A stretch of DNA of 51,876 bases, from the IMG/VR virus record IMGVR_UViG_3300035698_034991, positions 1-51,876 of that record; one strand, 5' to 3'. The notes beneath the pieces were generated by a model. The model was not told the DNA's origin and did no database searches. It saw nothing but the letters and a program-made list of their open reading frames with translations. Of the stretch, positions 1,173 to 51,132 are shown piece by piece (the first letter of the stretch is position 1; each line of letters opens with the position of its first letter). Source of the DNA: a virus. A program made the position numbers and the translations under genes.

Positions 1173-1502
1173 ATGTATGATTACAGCCACAAGCGTTATT
1201 CTACTGTCCGCCCGGTTCCTTTGTTGGAACTGGGAGACCTTATCAAATATCAAAATAACAACACCCTCTGTTTGCTTTTGGAAGAACCAAGAATTAACCT
1301 TGATCGATGCCGCATTAAAATAAAGTGCCTTTATCTTGAAGTAGAAACCATGATAGATAAGCCACTTGCGATGTTTTATTTTTGTTCTAAGATATACCGA
1401 AAAGGAAAGATAATTTGGGACAACATACAGGAGCTTGAAAACAGCGATCGCATAGCCATTGACGATCGAGTTTTACAAACTTATTATAAAGATTGGATGT
1501 AG
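1173..1502 (+). CDS. Small phage protein of unknown function
   Basis: This 109-aa protein is not recognised. The ATG at 1173, 4 bp after the preceding stop, is preferred over an in-frame ATG at 1104 that would overlap the upstream gene by 65 bp. It looks beta-rich: a GDLIKY turn is followed by an LLLEEP stretch and a basic IKIKCLYLE strand. That layout (GxL...L.LE...R.KCLY) also occurs in the 87-aa protein at 4033, suggesting a loose family of small SH3-barrel-like phage proteins; this is inference. It is translationally linked to its neighbours on both sides. Confidence 0.7.
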   Translation: MYDYSHKRYSTVRPVPLLELGDLIKYQNNNTLCLLLEEPRINLDRCRIKIKCLYLEVETMIDKPLAMFYFCSKIYRKGKIIWDNIQELENSDRIAIDDRVLQTYYKDWM

Positions 1503-1507
1503 TCACT

Positions 1508-1816
1508 ATGTGGAAGCTGTATGTGGATGATGTTCGCAACCCGCCTGACACAACTTGGATAATTGCTCGAACCTCGTCGGAAGCAATTGTAATTTGTAAA
1601 AATCAAAAAACAATGCCAGGTATAATGAGCCTGGACCACGACCTTGGCGGCGAAGATACTATAATGACATTTTTGAAAGAGCTGTTCGAGTATTGGTGCG
1701 AACATTTTAACTCAAAAGAAACAATCCCGAAATACGTCGTACATAGCGCAAATCCAATTGGCAGTAAAAATGCAATTTCTTTTATGGAATCTTGGAAGAG
1801 ATCAATAGATTTGTAA
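1508..1816 (+). CDS. cREC-type receiver-like domain protein (predicted RNA cyclic-phosphate processing)
   Basis: This is a 102-aa single-domain protein. The ATG at 1508 lies 5 bp past the preceding stop; a TTG at 1493 is the alternative. Visible motifs are an acidic DD with RNPP at residues 7-13, SLDHDLGGEDT at 41-51 and VHSANPIG at 78-85. These match the divergent receiver domain that I recall as cREC_REC, 'cyclic-phosphate processing receiver domain', proposed from comparative genomics to act in RNA repair. The family assignment is firm from the motifs; the biochemical activity is a prediction from the literature. It fits the other RNA-repair genes at 5206, 7621, 9180 and 12266. Confidence 0.7.
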   Translation: MWKLYVDDVRNPPDTTWIIARTSSEAIVICKNQKTMPGIMSLDHDLGGEDTIMTFLKELFEYWCEHFNSKETIPKYVVHSANPIGSKNAISFMESWKRSIDL

Positions 1817-3264: not shown

Positions 3265-4017
3265 ATGAGAAAACGAATTATTTGCATTGGTGATATTCAT
3301 GGCATGCTTGAGGAATTCGTCCAACTGATAAACAAAACAAAATATATTCAAGGAGTTGATAGATGCGTGCTGTGCGGGGATCTTGTAGATCGAGGCCCCC
3401 AAACAGCCGAGGTGATTGAGTATGCGATTTCCATTGGCGCCGAGCTTGTCATTGGAAATCATGACGACAAGTACATTCAGTATAAAAAGCGTTATATAGA
3501 CAAAACAGCAGATATTCCTGTTGTCTTTTCCGATAGTCAGCAAAAAATTTGGGACTCATTAAATGATGAACATTTAAAATATTTAGAAAATGGCAAATAT
3601 TGCTTAGAGCTGCCAGAGTATAATGCAGTAGTCGTACATGCCGGAGTCATCCCTAGCAACAAAAAATTGACAGACAGGCCTCGAATAGAATATCTTCTTA
3701 CAAGGTATATTGATAAAAATACACACGAGCGGACCCGACTTCCTAATGATTTCTCAAAGCCGAAAAATTCTGTTCATTGGACCGACCTATATGAAGGTGT
3801 GATCGATATAGTTTATGGGCACGATGTCTATTCGTTTAATAAACCTGCAATAAGGATTTCGAAGCGTGGAGGCCGTACTATAGGAATTGACACAGGGGCG
3901 GTGTATGGCGGGAACTTAACTGCTTTAGTTTATAACAGTGATGGGACCGAGGAATTTATTCAAGTAAAATCCAGAGAAGCTTGGAAAGGCTTCGTTCTTA
4001 CAAACCCGTCGAGGTGA
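3265..4017 (+). CDS. PPP-family metallophosphatase (Ser/Thr phosphatase or Ap4A hydrolase-like)
   Basis: This 250-aa protein has the classic PPP signatures in order: GDIHG near residue 9, GDLVDRG near 39, GNHD near 66, and later VHAG and GHD. These form the two-metal centre of the lambda phosphatase and ApaH group. The substrate may be phosphoproteins, diadenosine tetraphosphate or 2',3'-cyclic phosphates, since PPP-type enzymes of the Pnkp group act on RNA ends. The sequence alone does not decide. Its place among RNA-repair genes makes the last option worth testing. Confidence 0.85.
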   Translation: MRKRIICIGDIHGMLEEFVQLINKTKYIQGVDRCVLCGDLVDRGPQTAEVIEYAISIGAELVIGNHDDKYIQYKKRYIDKTADIPVVFSDSQQKIWDSLNDEHLKYLENGKYCLELPEYNAVVVHAGVIPSNKKLTDRPRIEYLLTRYIDKNTHERTRLPNDFSKPKNSVHWTDLYEGVIDIVYGHDVYSFNKPAIRISKRGGRTIGIDTGAVYGGNLTALVYNSDGTEEFIQVKSREAWKGFVLTNPSR

Positions 4018-4407: not shown

Positions 4408-5222
4408 TCCCAAACATTACACAACGAAAATGTCCTCAGTGTTTTGTTGATATTTTCTACAAGATAAAATACGAATGCATCCGTGCTGAAAAAAACAATA
4501 GCGTTTGTTCAAAATGCCGATATAAAAATCTAGGCCGACGCAATAAAGAAAAATCTAAAATATCTTACAAACAAAAACAAAAAATTATTAATTTGTTGAA
4601 AACGAATTTAACACATAGCGAAATAAAAGAAAAAATAGGTATAAACTGCTCTAACGCTCTGCTTACTAAATTTGCCAAAGAAAATAATCTGCAACGGAAA
4701 TTTCCAAAAAAACTTGAATTTGTTGATAGCAAACACGCAAAATGTAGCAAATGTTTTAACACTAAACCTTTATGTCGTTTTAAGGTAAATCGCTGCTATA
4801 ACAATGTAATGAGAGTGGGGTATTTCTCGTTTTGCAAGTCTTGTTATTACAAGCAAGAACATGAAGCTATTAATAATAATCCTGGTCGTCACTTTCGAGA
4901 GAAGATTAAAAATATCAAAAGGCGTTGTAAAAAAAATAATATTCCATTTAACTTGACAGCCAAGTTTTTACTAAATTTATATTATAAACAAAACGCATTG
5001 TGCTTTTATACGGACGAAAAGATGATTCTTAAGAAGGGGGTTGGCCTACACCGGCCCACTCTTTCGGTAGACCGAGTAATCCCCAAACAAGGATATGTTA
5101 AGTCAAACGTTGTTCTGTGTGCATATATTGTTAATAGAGCTAAGTTTGATCTTACGTTGGAAGAGATTAAAAAATGGATGCCGAACTGGTATGAAAGGAT
5201 AGAACATGACAGGTGTTGTTAA
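4404..5222 (+). CDS. HNH homing endonuclease
   Basis: This 272-aa protein begins with CPQC and CSKC zinc-like pairs, then a helix-turn-helix-like segment near residues 55-95. A second cysteine set (CSKC, CKSC) lies near 115-150. The C-terminal nuclease shows SVDRVIPKQGYVKSNVVL, the DR.....GY...N.. pattern of His-Asn-His homing enzymes. A conventional first His is replaced by the SVDR context, as in many phage relatives. It starts within the stop of the macrodomain fragment and ends 17 bp inside the intact macrodomain gene, so it is wedged between the two copies. Base composition is more AT-rich than its neighbours, consistent with transfer. Confidence 0.8.
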   Translation: MIPNITQRKCPQCFVDIFYKIKYECIRAEKNNSVCSKCRYKNLGRRNKEKSKISYKQKQKIINLLKTNLTHSEIKEKIGINCSNALLTKFAKENNLQRKFPKKLEFVDSKHAKCSKCFNTKPLCRFKVNRCYNNVMRVGYFSFCKSCYYKQEHEAINNNPGRHFREKIKNIKRRCKKNNIPFNLTAKFLLNLYYKQNALCFYTDEKMILKKGVGLHRPTLSVDRVIPKQGYVKSNVVLCAYIVNRAKFDLTLEEIKKWMPNWYERIEHDRCC

Positions 5223-5688
5223 AATTATAAAAGGAGACCTTTTTTCTTGTCAAGATCATATGGCCCATGGTATTAATGTTTGTGGGGTTTTTGGTAAAGG
5301 GGTGGCAGTAATTTTCAAGAAACATTTTCCAGAAATGTATCAAGCGTACCGAATAGACTGTCAAGAAAATAAAATTGTGCCTGGTGATTGTTGGGTCTGG
5401 AAAGAAAATGAAGGACTTGTTGTTGAAAATAACAATGTTTTAGAACGACAAGATCGAATGATTTTCAACCTAGCAGTTAAAGATCACTGGAAGTTCCCAG
5501 CAACTTATTCGGCTGTTGAACAAAGCATGAGAAGGTTGGTTTTTTATATGGTGAAAAATAAAATAAAATCTGTGTCAATGCCCTGGATAGGTTGCGGGCT
5601 TGGCGGACTAGAAAAAGACAAGGTTGCCGATGTAATTAAAGGCGCAATAAAAAATAAAAATGTTGCAATAAACATTTATGAATTATGA
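5206..5688 (+). CDS. Macrodomain protein (ADP-ribose-1''-phosphate phosphatase / TARG1-like)
   Basis: This 160-aa protein is a single macrodomain. GDLF at 10-13 and HGINVCGVFGKGVA at 21-34 form the ADP-ribose-binding loop, and PWIGCGLGGLEKDKV near 125-140 forms the second loop. This pattern is closest to Poa1p/TARG1/DarG-type domains, which hydrolyse ADP-ribose-1''-phosphate or remove ADP-ribose from macromolecules. ADP-ribose-1''-phosphate arises in tRNA splicing and repair when Tpt1 removes a 2'-phosphate, so an RNA-repair role is plausible. Reversal of host ADP-ribosylating toxins such as DarT is an alternative. The start overlaps the HNH gene by 17 bp. Confidence 0.85.
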   Translation: MTGVVKIIKGDLFSCQDHMAHGINVCGVFGKGVAVIFKKHFPEMYQAYRIDCQENKIVPGDCWVWKENEGLVVENNNVLERQDRMIFNLAVKDHWKFPATYSAVEQSMRRLVFYMVKNKIKSVSMPWIGCGLGGLEKDKVADVIKGAIKNKNVAINIYEL

Positions 5689-6019: not shown

Positions 6020-6718
6020 ATGAGCAAAAGGCAAACTGGGTTATATAAAAATTTTTTTGACAGAACTACTGGGTTGCCCCTATTAACGCCCAGGGTGACT
6101 TTACCTCACTGGTTAGATAGTGACGTTTTTAAGCTTTGGCCACGGAAACTTAATGAAACGAAGAAACATTCGCATATCTGGGTAAGGTGGAACATTGACT
6201 TGACCTCCCGTCGTGCGAACCCACGTTCATCGTGGGACTTCGACGATCAGGTCGATATAATAAGACTATACTCGCTTGACAGCGGCAGCAATTGGCAAGA
6301 GGTCAATTTCACCTCTCTCTATAAACCAAAGAAGTATATTAATACAGAGCACAAGCTATTTGACGAAGCCGTTGAAAAGTCAAGGCAAACCATATATCGC
6401 CTAAGAGCAAAAGCTCGTCGAGAGGTCAAGAAGAAACAGGCAGAAGAATTAGGCGTGACCTTTAAAGAATATAGCAAAAGTCTTTCTGAAATTACTCGCC
6501 TGGCAGCTGAGAAGAAGAAGAAGTTAAAGAAAGTTGATGACACCAAACGAAGGATTCAGGTCGGCCCTGTCCTTGCTGAATTAAAAGAGGAGTTGGATTG
6601 CCTGATGATGGAGTTGCAAGACCCACATAGTAATTTAAGTTTAACACACATCGACAACAGTACAAGAAATCTTAAAAAAGCCATTCAAGTTTTATTGAAA
6701 TGGCGAGGCAACAAATGA
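6020..6718 (+). CDS. Unknown phage protein with basic coiled-coil middle
   Basis: This 232-aa protein is not recognised. The first 100 residues are rich in Trp and aromatic residues (for example IWVRWNID). Residues about 115-180 are Lys/Arg/Glu-rich and heptad-like, so a charged helical or coiled-coil region is likely. There is no signal peptide or membrane segment. AGAGGCAAG upstream of the ATG is the ribosome-binding site. The stop overlaps the start of the next gene by the ATGA arrangement, so the two are co-translated. Confidence 0.7.
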   Translation: MSKRQTGLYKNFFDRTTGLPLLTPRVTLPHWLDSDVFKLWPRKLNETKKHSHIWVRWNIDLTSRRANPRSSWDFDDQVDIIRLYSLDSGSNWQEVNFTSLYKPKKYINTEHKLFDEAVEKSRQTIYRLRAKARREVKKKQAEELGVTFKEYSKSLSEITRLAAEKKKKLKKVDDTKRRIQVGPVLAELKEELDCLMMELQDPHSNLSLTHIDNSTRNLKKAIQVLLKWRGNK

Positions 6719-7581: not shown

Positions 7582-7604
7582 ACCCAGGGAAACCTGGGTT
7601 TTTT
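7582..7604 (+). terminator. Rho-independent terminator
   Basis: ACCCAGG at 7582-7588 and CCTGGGT at 7593-7599 pair perfectly around a GAAA tetraloop, followed by a run of T. It separates the Lys-rich gene from the Thg1-like gene, which starts 17 bp later. Confidence 0.92.
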
Positions 7605-7620
7605 ATGATATCATCGTTTA

Positions 7621-8352
7621 ATGGGAGATAAAACTTCACTTGGCGACCGTATGAAAAAACACGAAAGTGTTTATAAATTTTCTTTACCTCATCGCATGCC
7701 GATAGTTTGTCGGCTCGACGGAAAAGCTTTTCATACCTATACATCCGGGTGCAAGGAATTGTTTTGCAAAAGTTTGAACCAAGTAATGGATCAGACTGCA
7801 ATAAAACTATGCAAAGAAATCCAGGGCGCACAAATGGCGTATGTCCAGAGTGATGAAATTTCCATTTTGATTCACCCGTATAAAAAGTTTGCAAGTCAGG
7901 CCTGGTTTGATAATGAAGTTCAAAAAATATCAAGTGTAACAGCCGGAATTGCCTCTTCTACTTTTACAATGCTGTCGGATAAAATTTCTTTTAATGGTGG
8001 CCAGATCAAGCCTGCTGTTTTTGATTCGAGAGTTTTTGGCCTGCCCGAAAATGAAGTTTGTAATTATTTGGTTTGGAGGCAGAAAGATTGTGAAAGAAAC
8101 TCAATTTCTTCTGCTGCACAGTATCATTATTCAGCAAAAGAATTGCATGGAAAAAATTCGCAACTAAAAAAGGAAATGCTGCTTAGATGTAACTATGACT
8201 GGGAGATGTCAGAGCCAGGATTTAGATTTGGAAGAACTATTCTACCGACAGAAACATTTGAAGGCCGGAAAACTTGGGCCGTAAGCGAAGAGACATTGGT
8301 TTTTTCGGAGCAGCGGAAATTCGTTAATGATTTACTTCTATGTGAAGAATAA
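7621..8352 (+). CDS. thg1: Thg1-like protein (3'-5' RNA polymerase / tRNA-His guanylyltransferase family)
   Basis: The 243-aa protein is of normal Thg1/TLP length. The metal-binding motif RLDGKAFHTYT places Asp33, and YVQSDEISIL gives Asp78-Glu79; these correspond to the three catalytic carboxylates of human Thg1. Thg1 adds G-1 to tRNA-His. Bacterial and archaeal Thg1-like proteins add nucleotides in the 3'-5' direction to repair truncated tRNA 5' ends. The neighbouring nucleotidyltransferase and RNA ligase favour the repair role. No tRNA-His is seen in the window. TATGAT at 7604 lies only 17 bp before the ATG and there is no ribosome-binding site, so the mRNA may have a very short leader. 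Confidence 0.9.
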   Translation: MGDKTSLGDRMKKHESVYKFSLPHRMPIVCRLDGKAFHTYTSGCKELFCKSLNQVMDQTAIKLCKEIQGAQMAYVQSDEISILIHPYKKFASQAWFDNEVQKISSVTAGIASSTFTMLSDKISFNGGQIKPAVFDSRVFGLPENEVCNYLVWRQKDCERNSISSAAQYHYSAKELHGKNSQLKKEMLLRCNYDWEMSEPGFRFGRTILPTETFEGRKTWAVSEETLVFSEQRKFVNDLLLCEE

Positions 8353-8363
8353 AACAAGCAAAA

Positions 8364-9089
8364 CTATTTTTTGCCTATTGTCATAAGGTTGTCATAGCTG
8401 GTAATTTTTGCATCATAGAGCTTTTGAAGCGTGCCGTTTCTTCTGAGAATTTTGTATGTTAGGTTTTCGACGGAATACTCACCACCGGACTCTAGGCCAC
8501 AACTTCTCATTTTTTTCAATTTCTTACTTAGCAGCTCCGCTGATTCAATTGTCTTTTCAAACTTACCATCTTCAAGCCTTGCAACCACGAAGTCATCTAT
8601 TAGACGCATAATAACTTTTGATTTTTTAGTTATCGCTTCTTTGTTTATAAAAGGTTTCGATTTTTGTGGTTCAACAACCCATTCGTTGTTTGTGATGCTA
8701 TAAACGCCCGAGGAGTGATGTACTTCGCTGGCATCTTCCACATAAACTTCAACATCGTAATCATAAATTTTAATTTCGTGCAAGTTATTCCATAGGTTTT
8801 TTCGTGCGCTAAAATATGTTTCAACCAAATCGACATTTTCATCAACCAAAGAATAATCTATAACAAGATGTAGATCAATATCGCTATATTTAGACCAATT
8901 GTAATTGGCCAAGCTTCCAGTGAATTTAATATCTTCAAGCTCAGCCCAGGGAATATCCAGGTCTTTATAGAAGTCTTTGGCGATCTTAATGAGCTGTTTT
9001 CTAATTTTTGGATTTAGTTTTTTATCTTTTGTCCAGATATCCGAATTTAAACTATTCTTAACAGTAAGGCTTTTTAGATCAATGGACAT
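8364..9089 (-). CDS. Pol-beta-type nucleotidyltransferase
   Basis: This is a 241-aa protein. ATG 9089 begins MSIDLK; an in-frame upstream start at 9134 would add a hydrophobic 15-residue stretch and is less likely. GSL at residues 58-60 and D70-x-D72 (SDIDLHLVID) are the signature of the Pol-beta nucleotidyltransferase superfamily, which includes CCA-adding enzymes, kanamycin nucleotidyltransferases and MNTs. A third carboxylate is likely in the YDVEVYVED strand. It is the only minus-strand gene among these repair genes and lies between Thg1-like and RNA ligase genes. Nucleotide addition to RNA 3' ends is plausible but unproven; an antitoxin-like MNT role is the alternative. Confidence 0.8.
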   Translation of the reverse strand: MSIDLKSLTVKNSLNSDIWTKDKKLNPKIRKQLIKIAKDFYKDLDIPWAELEDIKFTGSLANYNWSKYSDIDLHLVIDYSLVDENVDLVETYFSARKNLWNNLHEIKIYDYDVEVYVEDASEVHHSSGVYSITNNEWVVEPQKSKPFINKEAITKKSKVIMRLIDDFVVARLEDGKFEKTIESAELLSKKLKKMRSCGLESGGEYSVENLTYKILRRNGTLQKLYDAKITSYDNLMTIGKK

Positions 9090-9179
9090 GATGATAAATA
9101 TTAATATGAAAGATAAAAAGTAGATTAAAATCATTTATTCTAAAATATGTTATATTCTCTCTAATGAAAGTAGTTTATT

Positions 9180-9824
9180 ATGGCTAGCATGGAAAGGAAA
9201 AAATATCCAAAGACGCCACATCTAGGCTGTAGCCCAGGAGCAAGCAGTAAAGCCACTGTGGTTGATAGTGATAGCTTTTTTCTAAACAAAGAAATTGTAA
9301 TAACCGAAAAAATGGATGGTGAATGCACGGGGCTTACCTCAAACATTTGCCATGCAAGGTCTATTGAAAGTGCGGATCATTCATCGAGGCACTGGGTCAA
9401 GGGCCTTCATTCACAAATTAAAAACGATATACCAGTAGGTTGGAAAATATTTGGAGAAAATATGTTTGCAAAGCACACGATTCAATATTGTAATTTAAAA
9501 TCTTATTTTTTAGCTTTTAATGTTTGGAACAACAATATGGAGTGCTTAGACTGGGAAACAACAAACGAATGGTTTGACAAACTTGGGTTATCTTCACCAA
9601 AATGTCTGTATTTGGGTGTATGTGAAAAAAATACCATTAAGCGTTTTTCTGACGATTTTAATAGTGACAAGAATAAGGCCGAAGGGTTTGTCGTGCGAAC
9701 GACAAGCTCTTTTAAGTACGATCGTTTCGGCACGCACGTAGCCAAGTGGGTCAAGAAGGATTTTATTCAAACAAAACATGACTGGAAACATGGTGAAGTA
9801 ACGAAGAATCGTATGGTAAGATAA
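9180..9824 (+). CDS. RNA ligase (covalent nucleotidyltransferase family)
   Basis: This 214-aa protein shows all main ligase motifs. Motif I is EKMDGE with the adenylated Lys44, motif III is IFGENM at 90-95, motif IV is EGFVVR at 168-173, and motif V is KWVKK at 189-193. The opening YPKTPHLGCSPG is typical of the bacterial/phage RNA ligase family (PF09414-like). There is no OB-fold or kinase domain. The enzyme would seal 3'-OH/5'-phosphate RNA ends using ATP. It lies between the nucleotidyltransferase and polymerase genes. ATG 9189 is an alternative start. No standard 24-bp promoter precedes it, although TATATT occurs at 9151. Confidence 0.88.
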   Translation: MASMERKKYPKTPHLGCSPGASSKATVVDSDSFFLNKEIVITEKMDGECTGLTSNICHARSIESADHSSRHWVKGLHSQIKNDIPVGWKIFGENMFAKHTIQYCNLKSYFLAFNVWNNNMECLDWETTNEWFDKLGLSSPKCLYLGVCEKNTIKRFSDDFNSDKNKAEGFVVRTTSSFKYDRFGTHVAKWVKKDFIQTKHDWKHGEVTKNRMVR

Positions 9825-12265: not shown

Positions 12266-12658
12266 ATGTATACCGCTGTAGTTCTGGACGAAGAAAGCCG
12301 TGAAAAGATAATTAAGGTCTTTTCACCTATCGTGCCTGATGATTGGGAAATCATTGCCCATCACATGACTATTAATATGGGTAAGATTGAAAAGGGTCCA
12401 ATTGCCAATAGAACCGAGATGCCCAGAAAATACCTGGGAGCTACGGCATTAATGACCGTTGTGGGCCTTGCACAAAATGATAAAGTTATTGCTGTTGAGG
12501 TTGAATCCTCGATACCAAGCAAGAATTTAAATCCACATATCACCATTGCAGTAAATCGTTCTGCCGGAGGCAAACCTTCGATGAGTAACAAGCTTAAAAC
12601 TTTTACAACAATAAAAGACATTTTTATTGTTTTTGGTACGATTCAGGAGATCGGATAA
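12266..12658 (+). CDS. 2H phosphoesterase, tRNA-ligase CPD-like
   Basis: This 130-aa protein has two HxT motifs, H33-M-T35 in HHMTI and H91-I-T93 in NPHITIAV, which define the 2H phosphoesterase fold. Surrounding residues (AVVLDEES at the start, AVEVES before the second motif, GGKPSMSN after it) resemble the cyclic phosphodiesterase domain of fungal tRNA ligase Trl1. That domain opens 2',3'-cyclic phosphates to 2'-phosphates before sealing. This is the healing step that would precede the RNA ligase at 9180. The gene has its own promoter with almost no leader. Confidence in the fold is high, in the CPD subtype moderate. Confidence 0.82.
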   Translation: MYTAVVLDEESREKIIKVFSPIVPDDWEIIAHHMTINMGKIEKGPIANRTEMPRKYLGATALMTVVGLAQNDKVIAVEVESSIPSKNLNPHITIAVNRSAGGKPSMSNKLKTFTTIKDIFIVFGTIQEIG

Positions 12659-13240: not shown

Positions 13241-13316
13241 GCTCTCGACGCCGACAGGAACGGCAGCAGAACTTCTAATTCTGACTTTGTGGGTTCGAGT
13301 CCTACCGAGAGCGCCA
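13241..13316 (+). tRNA. tRNA-Arg (anticodon UCU) with encoded CCA
   Basis: This is a 76-nt cloverleaf. The acceptor GCTCTCG pairs with CGAGAGC, and discriminator G is followed by encoded CCA at 13314-13316. The D-stem is GCCG/CGGC, the anticodon stem CAGAA/TTCTG with loop CTTCTAA (anticodon TCT, U33, A37), and the T-arm GTGGG-TTCGAGT-CCTAC. It reads AGA, a codon common in AT-rich phage genes. Position 8 is A where U is usual, and C-1 could pair with G73, extending the acceptor stem. An HNH gene starts 7 bp downstream. Confidence 0.9.
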
Positions 13317-17533: not shown

Positions 17534-19393
17534 TTATTTGTCTTGTTGGCTTAAATGTTTTATGTATAATCTCTGCCCTGCATCATAGATCTTATACCAA
17601 CCAAGTTCAGCTGCATGCTCGCTCATAGACAATTTTCTTTCATCCATGTTTGCTCGACATCTTAGTCTGTTGTAAGTCTCAAATCCGTCGGACCATTTCC
17701 ACCCAAGAGTCTCCCTGGTTTTGACAAATTCTTTATTGAGGAGGTGATTGCCTGTACCATATCGAAGGTCCACCCAATTATGAATTTCTGTGATGCTTGA
17801 ATCCAGGTGATTCTTTTCAAGATGAGATAGTAGTTTGCTAAACCCTCCTACTACACTTGTGTCCGTTTTCGAACAAAATCTATCGATCTTGCAAATATTT
17901 TTCTTTTGCTTGAAAGAAAGTAGGGATACAAGTTCGTCATTGTAAAACAGCCCAATATGTCTAGTATTTATCGAACCCATAAGATGATTACGGCTAAGAA
18001 ATTCCGAAGCTACTAAATTCTTGACGGTTCGTACCGTGCATTTGCGAGCATAAATTTTATTTACCGTGCGACCGTCGGCATTGCCAACAATGGATTTAAC
18101 AATATGTGGTCTGCTACGAATTTCATCACCTCTAATCTGCATAATGCGCAAGTTAGCCTCTTCGAACTCTTTTCTAAGGCCGAAGTGATACCACCTATCT
18201 TTTTGTATGTTTTCGCCATGCCAATACAACCCATCAACATTAAGGTATGTGGTATTATTAAGTTTAAAATCGGGTCGACGAAGAGATTTAATCTGTTTCG
18301 GAGATTTGTTATAGTGTTTAATATCAAGAAGCTGCTCGGCAAGAGTTTCTAAGCTGGATTTGCTTTCTTTATGGTTATCAACAAACTTAAGCAGGCTTTC
18401 TTCGGAAAAAAACGTTCCGCCAATGCTGTGACAATAGCGTGTCACTGTTATGATCGAGGGCCTTGGCCTTGGCTGTTCCCGTAACCATTTTGCAACGCTA
18501 CCCCCTGTTTCTTTGACCTTGTATTGAATTAGCAATTCGTGCGGTTGCTCTACTCCATAATTTTGCTTAAGAGTTTTTTTAATTTTTTCTTTTATTACCG
18601 CTGAGCCAAGCGGGGTTGTTGCACCGAAGCGTTCTAGGCAAGTAGCCTCTCTTTTTTCTTTAATTTTCCTGGCTTCAATTGGGTTGCTTAACTTTTCTAG
18701 GTGTGATTTGCTAATTTTATCTTTTACGCTTTGGAGTTGCGACACATGCTCAACTCCGTAACGCTCCAGGAGGGTGGATTTAGTTTTCGCCTGCACTTCC
18801 TTAGAATTCCAAGTATAATCAACTCCGTATTTTTCTTTTACCGATTTTTTTAATTTATCTTGAACGGACTTATTCTGCATTGGGTTTTTCACACCAAACC
18901 TAGCTAAGTTTGATTGCACTATCTTCTTTCGTACTTCTGCGCTTTGAAAAGAGCACTCAACTCCGTATCGATCGATATTTGTTTTTTTAGTTTTGTTCTT
19001 TATTATTTTGCTTTTTGAGGGGTTGTCCACTCCGTAGTTTTTTAAACACCCGGTCCTTCTTTTTTGTTTTATTTTTTCTGCTTTTTCCGGGTCGGCAAAG
19101 TTTCTCTTGTGCGCTTTGGAAATTTTTTCTCTAACTGATTTAAGTTGCGACTGATGCTCAACTCCGTATTTTTTTAATAAAGTCTCTTTTCGCCTTTGGG
19201 CCGCTCTGTTTGGATGAGCAGATTTTTCAATATACACTTTATTTGGAACAGACCAGAAATGGTCTTTTTCCACAAGGTCGTAGAATTTTGATTTTTTTTT
19301 CCAACCACCCCAACCATCTTTACATAGCTGTATGTCCTCACGGCCTTGTTCAACAAAACGCCTCAAAGCAATATCAAAAGTTATTTTTTTCAT
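17534..19393 (-). CDS. Repeat-rich homing endonuclease (VSR-like nuclease) with C-terminal GNAT-like domain
   Basis: This is a 619-aa protein. Residues about 65-265 hold seven or more copies of a roughly 30-residue unit built on YGV..(P/S)Q....V..KI, typical of DNA-binding repeats in phage homing enzymes. Residues about 335-440 resemble an EDxHD/VSR-like nuclease (RRPDFKLNNTTYLNVDGLYWHGE, then LRIMQIRGDEI). The last 170 residues (NHLMGS..HIGLFYNDELVSLLSF, GGFSKLL) look like an acetyltransferase-type fold; the role is unknown. It is a paralogue of the protein at 22400. It sits between two virion genes, has a -10-like TATGAT upstream, and is probably selfish. Confidence 0.75.
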   Translation of the reverse strand: MKKITFDIALRRFVEQGREDIQLCKDGWGGWKKKSKFYDLVEKDHFWSVPNKVYIEKSAHPNRAAQRRKETLLKKYGVEHQSQLKSVREKISKAHKRNFADPEKAEKIKQKRRTGCLKNYGVDNPSKSKIIKNKTKKTNIDRYGVECSFQSAEVRKKIVQSNLARFGVKNPMQNKSVQDKLKKSVKEKYGVDYTWNSKEVQAKTKSTLLERYGVEHVSQLQSVKDKISKSHLEKLSNPIEARKIKEKREATCLERFGATTPLGSAVIKEKIKKTLKQNYGVEQPHELLIQYKVKETGGSVAKWLREQPRPRPSIITVTRYCHSIGGTFFSEESLLKFVDNHKESKSSLETLAEQLLDIKHYNKSPKQIKSLRRPDFKLNNTTYLNVDGLYWHGENIQKDRWYHFGLRKEFEEANLRIMQIRGDEIRSRPHIVKSIVGNADGRTVNKIYARKCTVRTVKNLVASEFLSRNHLMGSINTRHIGLFYNDELVSLLSFKQKKNICKIDRFCSKTDTSVVGGFSKLLSHLEKNHLDSSITEIHNWVDLRYGTGNHLLNKEFVKTRETLGWKWSDGFETYNRLRCRANMDERKLSMSEHAAELGWYKIYDAGQRLYIKHLSQQDK

Positions 19394-22399: not shown

Positions 22400-24139
22400 A
22401 TGTCAGTAATACAACTAAAAGAATTTAAATCTGGCTCGGCAAACAGAATTACAAGAAAAGAATTGGTTCTTGAGTGTGACACATGCCAAAAAAGATTTGA
22501 AAGAATAAGCAATGTTCCTCGCTCTTTAAAAAGAAAGGTGCATTTTTGCACCAATTCCTGTGCGGCCAAATATAAAATGGAACATTCTGAGCAGGTTAAG
22601 AAGACTATTAACAACTTACACGCTCATCATGAAAAAATGAAAAGCAATAAATCCTATGCCAAGAAAATTGCAAAGCAGAAAGAAGAAACCTGCCTGCAAA
22701 AATATGGTGCAAAGACTCCCTTGGAAAGCAGAGAAATACGGGGTAGATGCACAAAAACCATGATAGAAAACTACGACGTCGACAATCCCCAAAAATCAAA
22801 AAAGATACAAGAGAAAACCAGGCGAACTAACCGCAAGAAGTACAACTCCAACTCTCCTTTTGGTTCCAGGGATGTTCAGGCCAAAGCCAAAGAAGCAATT
22901 AAAAAGAAATATGGCGTCGAGCATGTTATGCACTCGCCACAAGTGCGTAAAAAAATAAAAAAAACAAATCTCGAACGATACAAGGTGGAAAACCCAGGCA
23001 AGCTTGAAATTTTTATAGACAAGGCTAAAAAAACCAATGTTGAAAAATATGGAACCGATCATCCTATGAAGCAGGATGCTTTCAAGAAAAGTTTTCAAAA
23101 GAGGTTTTTTAAAACCCATGGTGTGACCGGGCCGTTTGCACTTGAAAAGGTCCGACTGTCACTAATGAAGCGCTTTGTTGAAACCGAGAGTGAATGCCTG
23201 AAAGACTGGTGGGATAAACAGCCAGAGCCAAAGCCAGCTCTTTCAACCTTATACCAATCAACAAAGCAAAAAACAATTTCCAAAAAGTTCTTACAAGAAT
23301 TAATTGACAATTACAAAGACAATAAAACTAAACTTGAAGTCGCAGCTGAGCAATTGCTTGAAATAAAACATTACAACAGGTCCCCCAAGGAAATTGCATC
23401 TTCACGCCGCCCTGATTTCAAACTCAGTGACGCCATCTTTCTCAACGTTGATGGGCTTTATTGGCATTCGGAACAGCAAAAGGAAGATCGATACCATCTT
23501 AACCTTCGTAAAGAATTTGAATCCGCCAACCTGAGAATCCTCCAGTTTAGAGGCGATGAAATTCGAAATAAACCCCAGGTTGTTAAATCCATTGCTAATA
23601 ATGCGCTTGGTAAAACCGCAACAAAAGTGTTTGCTCGTAAGTGTAAAATTGAAGTCTTGAAACACAAGGAAGCTGAGGTATTTCTTAATGAAAACCACCT
23701 TATGGGTTCAACAAACGCAAAACATTTGGGACTGTTTTATCTTGGGGAGTTGATTACCTTGCTTTCCTACAAACAAAAGAAAACTGTTTGTAAGATTGAA
23801 AGATTCTGCTCGAAAATAAATACAACATGTGTTGGAGGTTTTAGCAAATTGTTGTCATACCTCGAAAAGAATTGTTTGAATTCGAGAACAACCGAAATCC
23901 ATAACTGGGTGGACCTTAGATATGGAACCGGGGAACACCTTGCAACCAAGAGCTTTGTCCGGGCTAGGGAAACCCTTGGCTGGAAATGGACCGATGGATT
24001 CGAAACATTCAACAGACTTAGTTGTAGAGCCAATATGGATCACAGAAAACTAAACCAACAGGCTCACGCAGATGAGCTTGGTTGGTATAAAATTTATGAT
24101 GCAGGGCAAAGGTTGTGGGTAAAATCTTTAGCACTCTAA
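22400..24139 (+). CDS. Repeat-rich homing endonuclease, paralogue of the gene at 17534
   Basis: This is a 579-aa protein. An N-terminal zinc finger (LECDTCQKRF with CTNSC) comes first. At least six repeats of the KYG/YKVENP type fill about 75-240. The VSR-like nuclease core (RRPDFKLSDAIFLNVDGLYWH, LRILQFRGDEI) lies near 330-400. The C-terminal acetyltransferase-like domain is about 65-70 percent identical by eye to the paralogue. It is inserted between two virion genes on the opposite strand with its own early promoter. Confidence 0.75.
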   Translation: MSVIQLKEFKSGSANRITRKELVLECDTCQKRFERISNVPRSLKRKVHFCTNSCAAKYKMEHSEQVKKTINNLHAHHEKMKSNKSYAKKIAKQKEETCLQKYGAKTPLESREIRGRCTKTMIENYDVDNPQKSKKIQEKTRRTNRKKYNSNSPFGSRDVQAKAKEAIKKKYGVEHVMHSPQVRKKIKKTNLERYKVENPGKLEIFIDKAKKTNVEKYGTDHPMKQDAFKKSFQKRFFKTHGVTGPFALEKVRLSLMKRFVETESECLKDWWDKQPEPKPALSTLYQSTKQKTISKKFLQELIDNYKDNKTKLEVAAEQLLEIKHYNRSPKEIASSRRPDFKLSDAIFLNVDGLYWHSEQQKEDRYHLNLRKEFESANLRILQFRGDEIRNKPQVVKSIANNALGKTATKVFARKCKIEVLKHKEAEVFLNENHLMGSTNAKHLGLFYLGELITLLSYKQKKTVCKIERFCSKINTTCVGGFSKLLSYLEKNCLNSRTTEIHNWVDLRYGTGEHLATKSFVRARETLGWKWTDGFETFNRLSCRANMDHRKLNQQAHADELGWYKIYDAGQRLWVKSLAL

Positions 24140-40155: not shown

Positions 40156-40184
40156 AGACCGTTTGATGTGTGGGGAAATACAAT

Positions 40185-40790
40185 ATGAAACTCATAGACC
40201 TGGAAAATGATTGTTGGATATGCTTCGCCGCAGGCTTTTTTAAGGACGAAAAGCTATTGAGTCAGGTTTATAAAGACAGCGTAAAAGATCTAAGCCAGCA
40301 AGAGCTTTTTTTCTACGGGAAGAAAATATTAATGCCAAGACTGACGGCATGGTATGGTGAAAAAGAATATAAATATTCTGGAACTGTCAATGTCCCGAAA
40401 AAGATGCCACCATCAATTCTAAAAATTAGAAATGAAATTGAAAATTCATTTTCGCACCTCCCTGGCTTTGGACAAGAAAAGCCTGTCTTAAATTCAGTTT
40501 TATGCAATTATTATAGAGATGGGGGTGACAGTATAAATTGGCATTCGGACGACGAAAGCATGCTTGGACCAACTGAAAAAAACGTATTGATCGCCTCGGT
40601 CACTTTTGGGTACGAGAGAAGGTTTATTCTAAAAAACAAACAAACAAAGCAAAAAATGACGATTATGTTAGGACAAGGTGACGTATTGGTCATGGGCGGT
40701 CAGGCCCAGAAGTATTGGGTTCATAAAATCCCAAAGACATCCAAGGCGACGGAGCCAAGATTAAATCTAACATTTAGGGTTATAAAATAG
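40185..40790 (+). CDS. alkB: AlkB-like Fe(II)/2-oxoglutarate dioxygenase
   Basis: This is a 201-aa protein. ATG 40185 has a GGGGA upstream; GTG 40170 is the alternative. Iron ligands are H120 and D122 in NWHSDDE and H180 in WVHKIP. R192 in PRLNLTFR binds 2-oxoglutarate. These match AlkB/ALKBH2 enzymes, which oxidatively remove alkyl groups from bases in DNA or RNA. The substrate-recognition region YSG...P resembles ALKBH2/3. With the UV endonuclease nearby, repair of the phage genome is likely; RNA demethylation is also possible given the RNA-repair genes. Confidence 0.9.
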   Translation: MKLIDLENDCWICFAAGFFKDEKLLSQVYKDSVKDLSQQELFFYGKKILMPRLTAWYGEKEYKYSGTVNVPKKMPPSILKIRNEIENSFSHLPGFGQEKPVLNSVLCNYYRDGGDSINWHSDDESMLGPTEKNVLIASVTFGYERRFILKNKQTKQKMTIMLGQGDVLVMGGQAQKYWVHKIPKTSKATEPRLNLTFRVIK

Positions 40791-48566: not shown

Positions 48567-48955
48567 CTTTAATCGAAGCGTATAAGCCGGGCGACCTACT
48601 TTTGCTGAATCATAGATGGTTTGTTGATTTTTGCATCAACATCCAAGGGACGCAGATGGGAATGTCGAGCTTCATAAAGAAATTATCGGACTCGAAAAAA
48701 GATCGTACAATGATTTATCAGCCTGCCTTACTCCTTGAAATATGTAAACGAAAGTTTTATTTTGATCGTCTTCACGGGCAGGAGAGTGTGCCAAATATGG
48801 TCATTTTTAAAATCTTGGTAGAAGGAACAGTGCTCGAAAGAGCGTTTTGTCAAAAATCCAAAGTGCTCCCATATTTAATCGTTGATAAGAGAAATTTCAA
48901 GCAGGCCATTCAGGCCAACAAAACCTATTACGAATATCAAAGCCTACTTCTATGA
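48563..48955 (+). CDS. Unknown protein
   Basis: This is a 130-aa protein. It opens with YKPGDLLLLNHRWFVDFCINI, a beta-hairpin-like start, and has a conserved-looking VPNMVIFKILVEGTVLERAF stretch. ATGA overlaps link it to both neighbours. No known domain is visible; the PGDLLLL...EGT layout again suggests the small-barrel family. Confidence 0.62.
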   Translation: MTLIEAYKPGDLLLLNHRWFVDFCINIQGTQMGMSSFIKKLSDSKKDRTMIYQPALLLEICKRKFYFDRLHGQESVPNMVIFKILVEGTVLERAFCQKSKVLPYLIVDKRNFKQAIQANKTYYEYQSLLL

Positions 48956-49326
48956 ACCTCAACGAACCATTAAAGACAGTAATCATTTTTCAGCAGGATA
49001 ACGACATGCCCGTCGAAAAAATGGTCGAAGCCGCTGCACATGCATTACTAAGGGTTGAATCCGAATGGTATTTTTTACTAGATATGTCAAATCAGTATCG
49101 AAAACCTTTGAAGGCGTCACTCCCGAAGTGCTCAATTAAAACAGTTATAGACAATGAAGATTTTGATCAAATAATAGAAAAGTGTAAGAAAGAAGGGCTT
49201 CCGTATGGCGTTGAACGTGCTTTCAAACGCAAGTCCAACAATCCAATTGTTTGCCTGGTTGTCGGACCAGACCTGAATTCAAAGGTAAATAAAGTTACTA
49301 GAAAGCTTAAAAAGCTTAAACAATGA
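48952..49326 (+). CDS. PTH2-like protein (peptidyl-tRNA hydrolase 2 fold)
   Basis: This is a 124-aa protein. The order of elements fits PTH2: a first strand LKTVIIFQQDNDMPVEKMVE, then AAAHALL (like the QxxHA helix), DFDQIIEKCKKEGLPYGVERA, and a final strand CLVVGPDLNSKVNKVT like the AIGP motif. PTH2 releases peptides from stalled peptidyl-tRNAs. The catalytic Lys near the start of the first helix is not clearly conserved and the DAG motif is absent, so it may be inactive or a DUF2000-type relative. It sits near DnaJ and the L12-like gene. Confidence 0.58.
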   Translation: MNLNEPLKTVIIFQQDNDMPVEKMVEAAAHALLRVESEWYFLLDMSNQYRKPLKASLPKCSIKTVIDNEDFDQIIEKCKKEGLPYGVERAFKRKSNNPIVCLVVGPDLNSKVNKVTRKLKKLKQ

Positions 49327-50431: not shown

Positions 50432-50439
50432 ATTTGTAT

Positions 50440-51132
50440 ATGAAAAAGCTTGAAAAAATTCACAAAAAAGGAATTTTCTTTCTAACTTTTAAAGACAGGT
50501 ACGACCTCTGTATGCACTTTTTAAGGCTGCAAGAGTATTATGAATCGCCTGTCTATAAAGACTCCTGGTTTACAATTGTTGAATACATGGACTGGTATTC
50601 CAGAGAGCACGGTGATGGCACTTTCACATATCCAGGGGATTGGAGTGGGTTTAATGTTCCTAGCAAGACTATTCGCTCTTTGTATGGCCACAACCCTCAT
50701 TACCGACCTGATAACCCTTCCAAACCTGGCTACATTCTTGATCCAAACAATTATGATAGAACTATGTGGCAGGTAAAAAACCTGATCGAAGCCACTCATG
50801 ATGGAGAGTATTATCTTATTGGGTGTCTTGACGAAAAATCAAGCGTAATGAAACATGAAATTGCTCATGCTTTATTTTACCTTGATGCAGAATACAAAGA
50901 GGAGCAGAGTGCGAACCTTAGAGAAGCTCCGAAAGACCTTGTAAAGACTATTTCGGACGTTCTTGTAGAAATGGGTTATCATAAGTCAGTAATCGAAGAT
51001 GAATTTCAGGCTTATATGTCAACTGGGTTAAGCGAAAAAATGAACTTGCCAGAAATTCCCCAGGACGAAGTTAAGCAGTGTCGTGACAAGTTCGAAGAAA
51101 CGTTCAAAAAATTCTATAAAGAAGAGGGTTAG
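50440..51132 (+). CDS. HExxH zinc metallopeptidase-like protein
   Basis: This is a 230-aa protein. ATG 50440 is used; TTG 50434 is the only earlier option. VMKHEIAHALFYLD gives H139-E140 and H143, and a Glu in the later VIEDEFQAYM helix is a likely third ligand, the gluzincin arrangement. The N-terminal 130 residues are rich in Tyr and Trp and include a DWYSREHGDG patch. There is no signal peptide, so it acts in the cytoplasm. The substrate is unknown. Its mRNA appears to lack a leader. Confidence 0.75.
   Translation: MKKLEKIHKKGIFFLTFKDRYDLCMHFLRLQEYYESPVYKDSWFTIVEYMDWYSREHGDGTFTYPGDWSGFNVPSKTIRSLYGHNPHYRPDNPSKPGYILDPNNYDRTMWQVKNLIEATHDGEYYLIGCLDEKSSVMKHEIAHALFYLDAEYKEEQSANLREAPKDLVKTISDVLVEMGYHKSVIEDEFQAYMSTGLSEKMNLPEIPQDEVKQCRDKFEETFKKFYKEEG

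Follow-up and report, generated by a model that had tools for sequence, protein, structure and literature searches.

Results

The window, by which we mean the whole stretch of DNA analysed here (the 51,876-base virus record IMGVR_UViG_3300035698_034991), carries phage replication and homing-endonuclease genes; it is a piece of the genome of a bacterial virus, probably a large tailed phage. Genes of a repair type are clustered in about 12-13 kb of it, and include a cREC domain, a metallophosphatase, a macrodomain, three neighbouring genes that are the focus of this study, a 2H phosphodiesterase and a tRNA-Arg (UCU). The three central genes encode a Thg1-like protein (TLP), a predicted 3'-5' nucleotidyl polymerase (7621..8352, + strand), a Pol-beta-fold nucleotidyltransferase (NT) of the phrog_36119 family (8364..9134, - strand, with a start possibly at 9089) and a core-only ATP-dependent RNA ligase (9180..9824, + strand), exactly at the coordinates and on the strands given in the initial annotation. 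That annotation also held that the trio does not form one operon, and we agree: TLP and NT converge and NT and ligase diverge, an arrangement that rules out a single operon. Just 5' of the TLP gene lies a terminator-like hairpin (7582..7599, + strand), the one hairpin found against a mean of 2.3 in shuffled sequences, a count not above chance; a promoter scan of the window likewise gave no excess over shuffles. Further upstream, a gene of unassigned function (6020..6718, + strand) has matches in the loci L001/L047 and L177 (24.9% identity), and similar genes sit upstream of a TLP or TLP fragment in two relatives. Elsewhere in the window, two homing-endonuclease-like genes (17534-19393 and 22400-24139) stand amid large, probably structural genes, and 40170-40790 encodes an AlkB-like 2OG-Fe(II) oxygenase; a gene for an oxygenase of the same kind lies between TLP and ligase in the phage locus L057 (11704-12318).

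The TLP matches the Thg1 Pfam model (7.5e-26; 91 bits against a cut-off of 29.2), the tRNA-His guanylyltransferase family phrog_4717 (4.1e-72) and, across residues 6-238, its closest solved relative BtTLP (PDB 4kgk/4kgm; 5.1e-51). We aligned it with 81 other viral and 71 genomic sequences, 153 in all. The catalytic residues D33, D78 and E79, described earlier as intact, are indeed present in the window protein, and none of the 152 other TLPs departs from them; R31, S77, K102 and R137 are also kept in a full-length, open frame. Together, the Pfam score, the predicted metal carboxylates (D33, D78, E79) and the predicted transfer-site residues (R31, K102, R137) place the protein in the Thg1/TLP family, and the absence of the HINNLYN motif (WRQKDCERNSI in the window, WRQADCHINNLYN in 3otb) marks it as a TLP rather than a eukaryotic Thg1. 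Relatives occur in 125 of 50,697 phage records; four large phage records (G051, G052, G053 and G057) carry a second, more distant TLP beside the main one, and two of these (G051 and G052) have a TLP at 7-9 kb from a ligase.

The one odd point of the window TLP is a change in the activation-site loop. BtTLP and the phrog_4717 phage TLPs resemble it in their full-length match, their metal and nucleotidyl-transfer residues and their lack of HINNLYN, but they have K/R and P in this loop where the window protein has E46 and L47. Lysine K43 of BtTLP aligns with E46 without gaps, at a position occupied by K or R in 73 of the 81 other viral TLPs and in 70 of the 71 genomic ones; the following position is P in 80/81 and 71/71, respectively. 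The window protein therefore departs from the subtype with a basic residue at the K43 site and BtTLP-type ATP-dependent 5' activation. According to passages of a review (PMC6471195), K43 of BtTLP is required for activation with ATP and dispensable with GTP. Since E46 replaces this ATP-activation lysine, the aligned residues suggest a TLP with an intact metal site in which ATP-dependent activation is in doubt; K45, which adjoins E46, could compensate for the lost lysine. In a phylogenetic tree, the window TLP falls in a clade of four (window, L001, L057 and L118; SH-aLRT 95), with an end branch of 2.06 against a median of 0.54, a length that our quick tree may inflate.

The initial annotation described the two genes next to the TLP as a GSL/DxD nucleotidyltransferase and a complete ligase. 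For the ligase this is borne out by the motifs and not by the domain content. It matches PF09414 (2.1e-27, spanning residues 37-191) and phrog_24030 (3.1e-58), and K44-x-DGE, the EN of GEN (E93-N94), EGxVxR (E168-G169) and K189 are invariant in 13 sequences. These residues (K44, D46-E48, E93-N94, E168-G169 and K189), which we take to represent motifs I, III, IV and V, identify it as a predicted PF09414-type ligase. Its 214 aa make up a catalytic core without a C-terminal domain. T4 Rnl2 has a C-terminal domain after the catalytic core, and the core-only window ligase accordingly differs from the two-domain ligases of the T4 Rnl2 kind.

The description of the middle gene as a GS/DxD nucleotidyltransferase is upheld by the invariance of G58, S59, D70, D72 and E114 in 50 sequences and by an AF2 model (pLDDT 95.2) that has a Pol-beta palm at about residues 27-140 followed by a helical C-terminal part. 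The best profile match is phrog_36119 (2.3e-42), a family with no function assigned there; PADLOC and NCBIfam gave no match at 0.01, and Pfam only weak ones below the cut-off (best SidM_N, 0.0014). The nearest solved folds, at low significance, are aminoglycoside adenylyltransferases and MNT proteins. Like NT, these AadA/ANT and MNT-type enzymes have a Pol-beta palm followed by helices (AAD(9), 1.6e-3; 2rff, Z 7.3 over 102 residues, rmsd 3.9); however, the TM score with AAD(9) is only 0.27, and NT finds clear structural matches only among similar phage proteins. Neither RlaP nor a CCA enzyme appeared among the structural matches listed, and the RlaP Pfam model was absent from the Pfam matches up to E 1, although HMMER filters may drop weak matches. 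Unlike what is expected of RlaP, the distribution of NT does not follow that of PF09414 RNA ligases.

The family is common, with at least 588 relatives in our scan, and its company does not support the joint role in repair that had been suggested for it. TLP was found in 0/50 NT records with a query that was positive in 50/50 TLP records, PF09414 ligases in 0/50 NT records (RtcB and Rnl1 lay outside this search), and NT in 4/50 ligase records, so that we reject NT as a proven repair partner. NT and ligase are head to head in two relatives (L177 and L190), and a distance of 1-2 kb in records of 44-65 kb is weak evidence. The protein probably works on its own as an adenylyl- or nucleotidyltransferase, in a family that usually occurs without TLP or ligase.

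Other genes in the cluster could act on RNA ends. A small gene (12266..12658, + strand) has two HxT motifs, H33-x-T35 and H91-x-T93, invariant in 9 sequences, and its AF2 model (pLDDT 89.2) matches fungal RNA kinase and mouse CNPase in Foldseek with a probability of 1.00 (best E 2.9e-3); the motifs on this modelled CNPase-like fold indicate a 2H phosphodiesterase of the CNPase / tRNA-ligase-CPD type. The cREC domain (1493..1816, + strand; PF20274, 4.1e-19) is predicted to process cyclic phosphates, and in LR756508 (L045) a cREC gene adjoins a ligase of the window ligase's subfamily. The calcineurin-like metallophosphatase (3265..4017, + strand; Metallophos, 1.5e-13) is similar to ApaH/PrpE and to the phosphatase portion of bacterial Pnkp (NCBIfam PRK00166, 7.5e-23; bacter_Pnkp, 3e-17 at positions 185-417 of 851), both matches falling below the curated cut-offs. 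Together with the tRNA-Arg (UCU) gene (13241..13316, + strand; ARAGORN, Rfam RF00005 at 42 bits), these three form a plausible end-cleaning set. No polynucleotide kinase was found among the 47 window proteins scanned, in a record that is a fragment. The macrodomain (5206..5688, + strand; PF01661, 6e-11) is closest to that of the antitoxin DarG (PADLOC DarG, 1.6e-35; NCBIfam DarG, 1.4e-33, below the cut-off) and was the only one of eight proteins scanned to match a defence library; standing alone, it may serve counter-defence against DarT-type toxins rather than RNA repair.

The pairing of TLP and ligase, which the initial annotation had linked to 5' repair, recurs well beyond the window. PF09414 ligases are present in 26/50 TLP records against 0/50 NT records, and in 15/28 against 0/14 when records of 100-220 kb are compared, a contrast that may partly reflect lineage, the NT records being a control of other phage types. 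The two genes are less than 3 kb apart in 5 of the 26 records, where random placement predicts 1.55, and the combined p for proximity is 0.0027 over the 26 records, 0.0038 without a near-duplicate and 0.0087 when the window's TLP clade is also left out, in tests that treat records as linear and placement as uniform and that ignore phylogeny. Seen from the ligase side, 16/50 records of the ligase subfamily have a TLP match, and proximity is weak (p 0.017, 0.039 without two window relatives, 0.15 without a further fragment). A Rnl2-type ligase lies within 6 kb in 11 of the best 80 bacterial/archaeal TLP loci, and in five of these 11, all of the Ruminococcus type, it abuts the TLP. Thus, TLP and RNA ligase co-occur more often than expected by chance, in phages and in bacteria. 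In the window's own TLP clade, the ligase is within 2.3 kb in the window, L001 and L057, and no ligase was found near the TLP in L118. Among 68 neighbouring ORFs of sister-clade TLPs (7 phage loci), 6 encode PTH2 and 3 a Phe-tRNA-synthetase domain. The window has its own peptidyl-tRNA hydrolase PTH2 (48952-49326); near it lies a gene (50434-51132) of a family without Pfam or NCBIfam match, whose relatives sit just upstream of TLP in four phage loci (L049, L056, L058 and L059).

Conservation of the whole trio is a different matter, and our gene-order comparison does not support it. Among 25 loci found with a structural-region gene, most of them in short records, TLP, NT or window-type ligase occur in one alone (L177/G001), and its TLP is a fragment. 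Several large genes of this relative are 46-83% identical to those of the window, and the order is the same: 6020-like gene, 7316-like gene, TLP, NT on the opposite strand, ligase, family A polymerase and 2H. Only 90 aa long, its TLP frame aligns with residues 1-76 and stops before S77-D78-E79, and the tail was not found in the sequence examined. Between NT and ligase it has an extra gene that we call Pol-beta-like from a GS...DxD stretch read by eye. This gene (L177 8845-9933, 362 aa, just upstream of the ligase) has no Pfam, PADLOC or NCBIfam match and one other relative, in the TLP locus L105; kinship with NT was considered, and hhalign found no relation. A second relative (L001/G003) has the 6020-like gene, with TLP (50%) and ligase (42%) 2.2 kb apart and no NT; a third (L190/G002) lacks TLP, and its NT and ligase stand head to head. 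In two more records (G008 and G175), TLP is reduced to a C-terminal piece next to the ligase. The contig of the nearest relative, G150 (206 kb, 89% in the structural gene), starts at the polymerase gene beside the ligase's place, and therefore the absence of the trio there means little. A pol A query returned no relatives.

Discussion

On balance, we lean towards the view that the cluster is part of the RNA-repair toolkit of a large tailed phage, in which TLP and ligase share a pool of damaged tRNAs. The gene identities, the active-site residues and the statistical link between TLP and ligase form the basis of this view, and from them we infer activities, substrates and an order of steps. Host defence or wear would cut or trim tRNAs; the 2H phosphodiesterase, perhaps with cREC and the metallophosphatase, would clean the RNA ends; TLP would use a template to put back lost 5' nucleotides in the 3'-5' direction; and the ligase would join breaks with a 5'-phosphate and a 3'-OH. 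On this view, TLP and ligase lie together since both draw on one supply of damaged tRNAs, and a given substrate need not meet both enzymes. In this respect, passages of PMC6471195 describe TLPs as preferring 5'-truncated tRNAs in vitro and their repair as templated. Points against the toolkit view are that the 47 window proteins scanned included no polynucleotide kinase, that proximity is weak when counted from the ligase side, and that TLP is truncated in G001 and a mere C-terminal piece in G008 and G175.

The initial annotation went further and proposed that lost 5' nucleotides are replaced before sealing. Refilling the 5' end and then sealing is possible, and the evidence does not support it as an explanation of the pairing, given that the repair known for TLPs in vitro depends on a template and is described best for 5'-truncated tRNAs, which need no sealing. 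Coupling of TLP to ligation would presumably require a gap with a template strand facing it, and we regard it as very improbable that TLP refills the 5'-phosphate side of such a gap, with the opposite strand as template, before the ligase seals it. Adjacency and enzyme chemistry are compatible with this order, and TLPs can add many templated nucleotides, BtTLP even on an external template (passages of PMC6471195). Nevertheless, breaks in the anticodon loop give no template. An ATP-dependent ligase should not accept a 5'-triphosphate unless two phosphates are removed, and we could assign no enzyme here to that task. Yet it is in a 5'-triphosphate that Thg1/TLP products end, according to part of PMC8131947. 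A strict order of refilling and sealing is thus problematic both because 5'-truncated tRNAs need no sealing and because a 5'-triphosphate is unfit for the ligase.

There are two other explanations. It is unlikely, albeit conceivable, that TLP, NT and ligase arrived independently and lie together by chance in an accessory region of variable content, with no common pathway. The gene content of the region does vary, with an extra Pol-beta-like gene in G001, no TLP in L190 and no NT in L001, and the convergent and divergent orientations leave the three genes outside one operon; however, chance does not account readily for TLP-ligase co-occurrence and proximity that recur in unrelated phages and bacteria. 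It is rather improbable that the TLP is decaying in the window's lineage, its activation impaired and the gene persisting by chance or because it still has some residual function. E46 and L47 in place of the near-invariant K/R and P, the long end branch, the truncated orthologue in G001 and the TLP pieces that adjoin the ligase in G008 and G175 all point in this direction, but the frame is full-length and retains R31, D33, S77, D78, E79, K102 and R137. Moreover, K45 adjoins the lost position, the branch length may be inflated, and the lysine is dispensable for GTP-dependent activation in BtTLP (passages of PMC6471195).

RNA ligases of the window type and Thg1-family enzymes go through a common intermediate, AppRNA. 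It is tempting to imagine that the core-only ligase charges AppRNA and that a transfer-only TLP, marked by E46, adds nucleotides to it, an idea to which we give a very slim chance. The opposite direction, in which App made by a TLP is used for ligation, was proposed in 2010 (in passages of PMC2904730), and we found no earlier proposal of the ligase-to-TLP direction in the literature searched. With its TLP lacking the lysine for ATP activation and a core-only ligase close by, the window makes this idea of shared AppRNA directly testable. As to why phages and bacteria carry 3'-5' polymerases, the statistical link between TLP and ligase in both groups makes tRNA repair a stronger answer.

The association of TLP with ligase and a proposed role in RNA repair were already described in 2010 and 2021, and phage TLPs are annotated in many genomes. 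Passages of the 2010 study (PMC2904730) describe neighbourhoods in bacteria where Thg1 lies near genes for polynucleotide kinase, MACRO and RNA ligase, and give an RNA-repair reading that includes phage 201phi2-1. The window resembles the neighbourhoods described there in having TLP, ligase and macrodomain in one stretch, and differs in that no polynucleotide kinase was found in this fragment, in the additional NT, cREC and 2H genes and in a macrodomain of the DarG-like kind. The jumbo-phage RNA-repair sets reported in 2021 (in parts of PMC7824862) include ATP-grasp RNA ligase, Pol-beta NTase, Thg1, 2H, cREC, Macro, calcineurin phosphatase, tRNAs and PTH2, the same enzyme classes as in the window. 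HNH-fused relatives of Rnl2 are also described in jumbo phages there, and in SCTP-2 we saw such a relative weakly. In contrast to the sets in those parts of PMC7824862, the window NT is not recognised as RlaP, and TLP, NT and ligase are immediate neighbours. What our analysis adds to these systems is a quantified link between TLP and ligase and one unusual change in a TLP active site.
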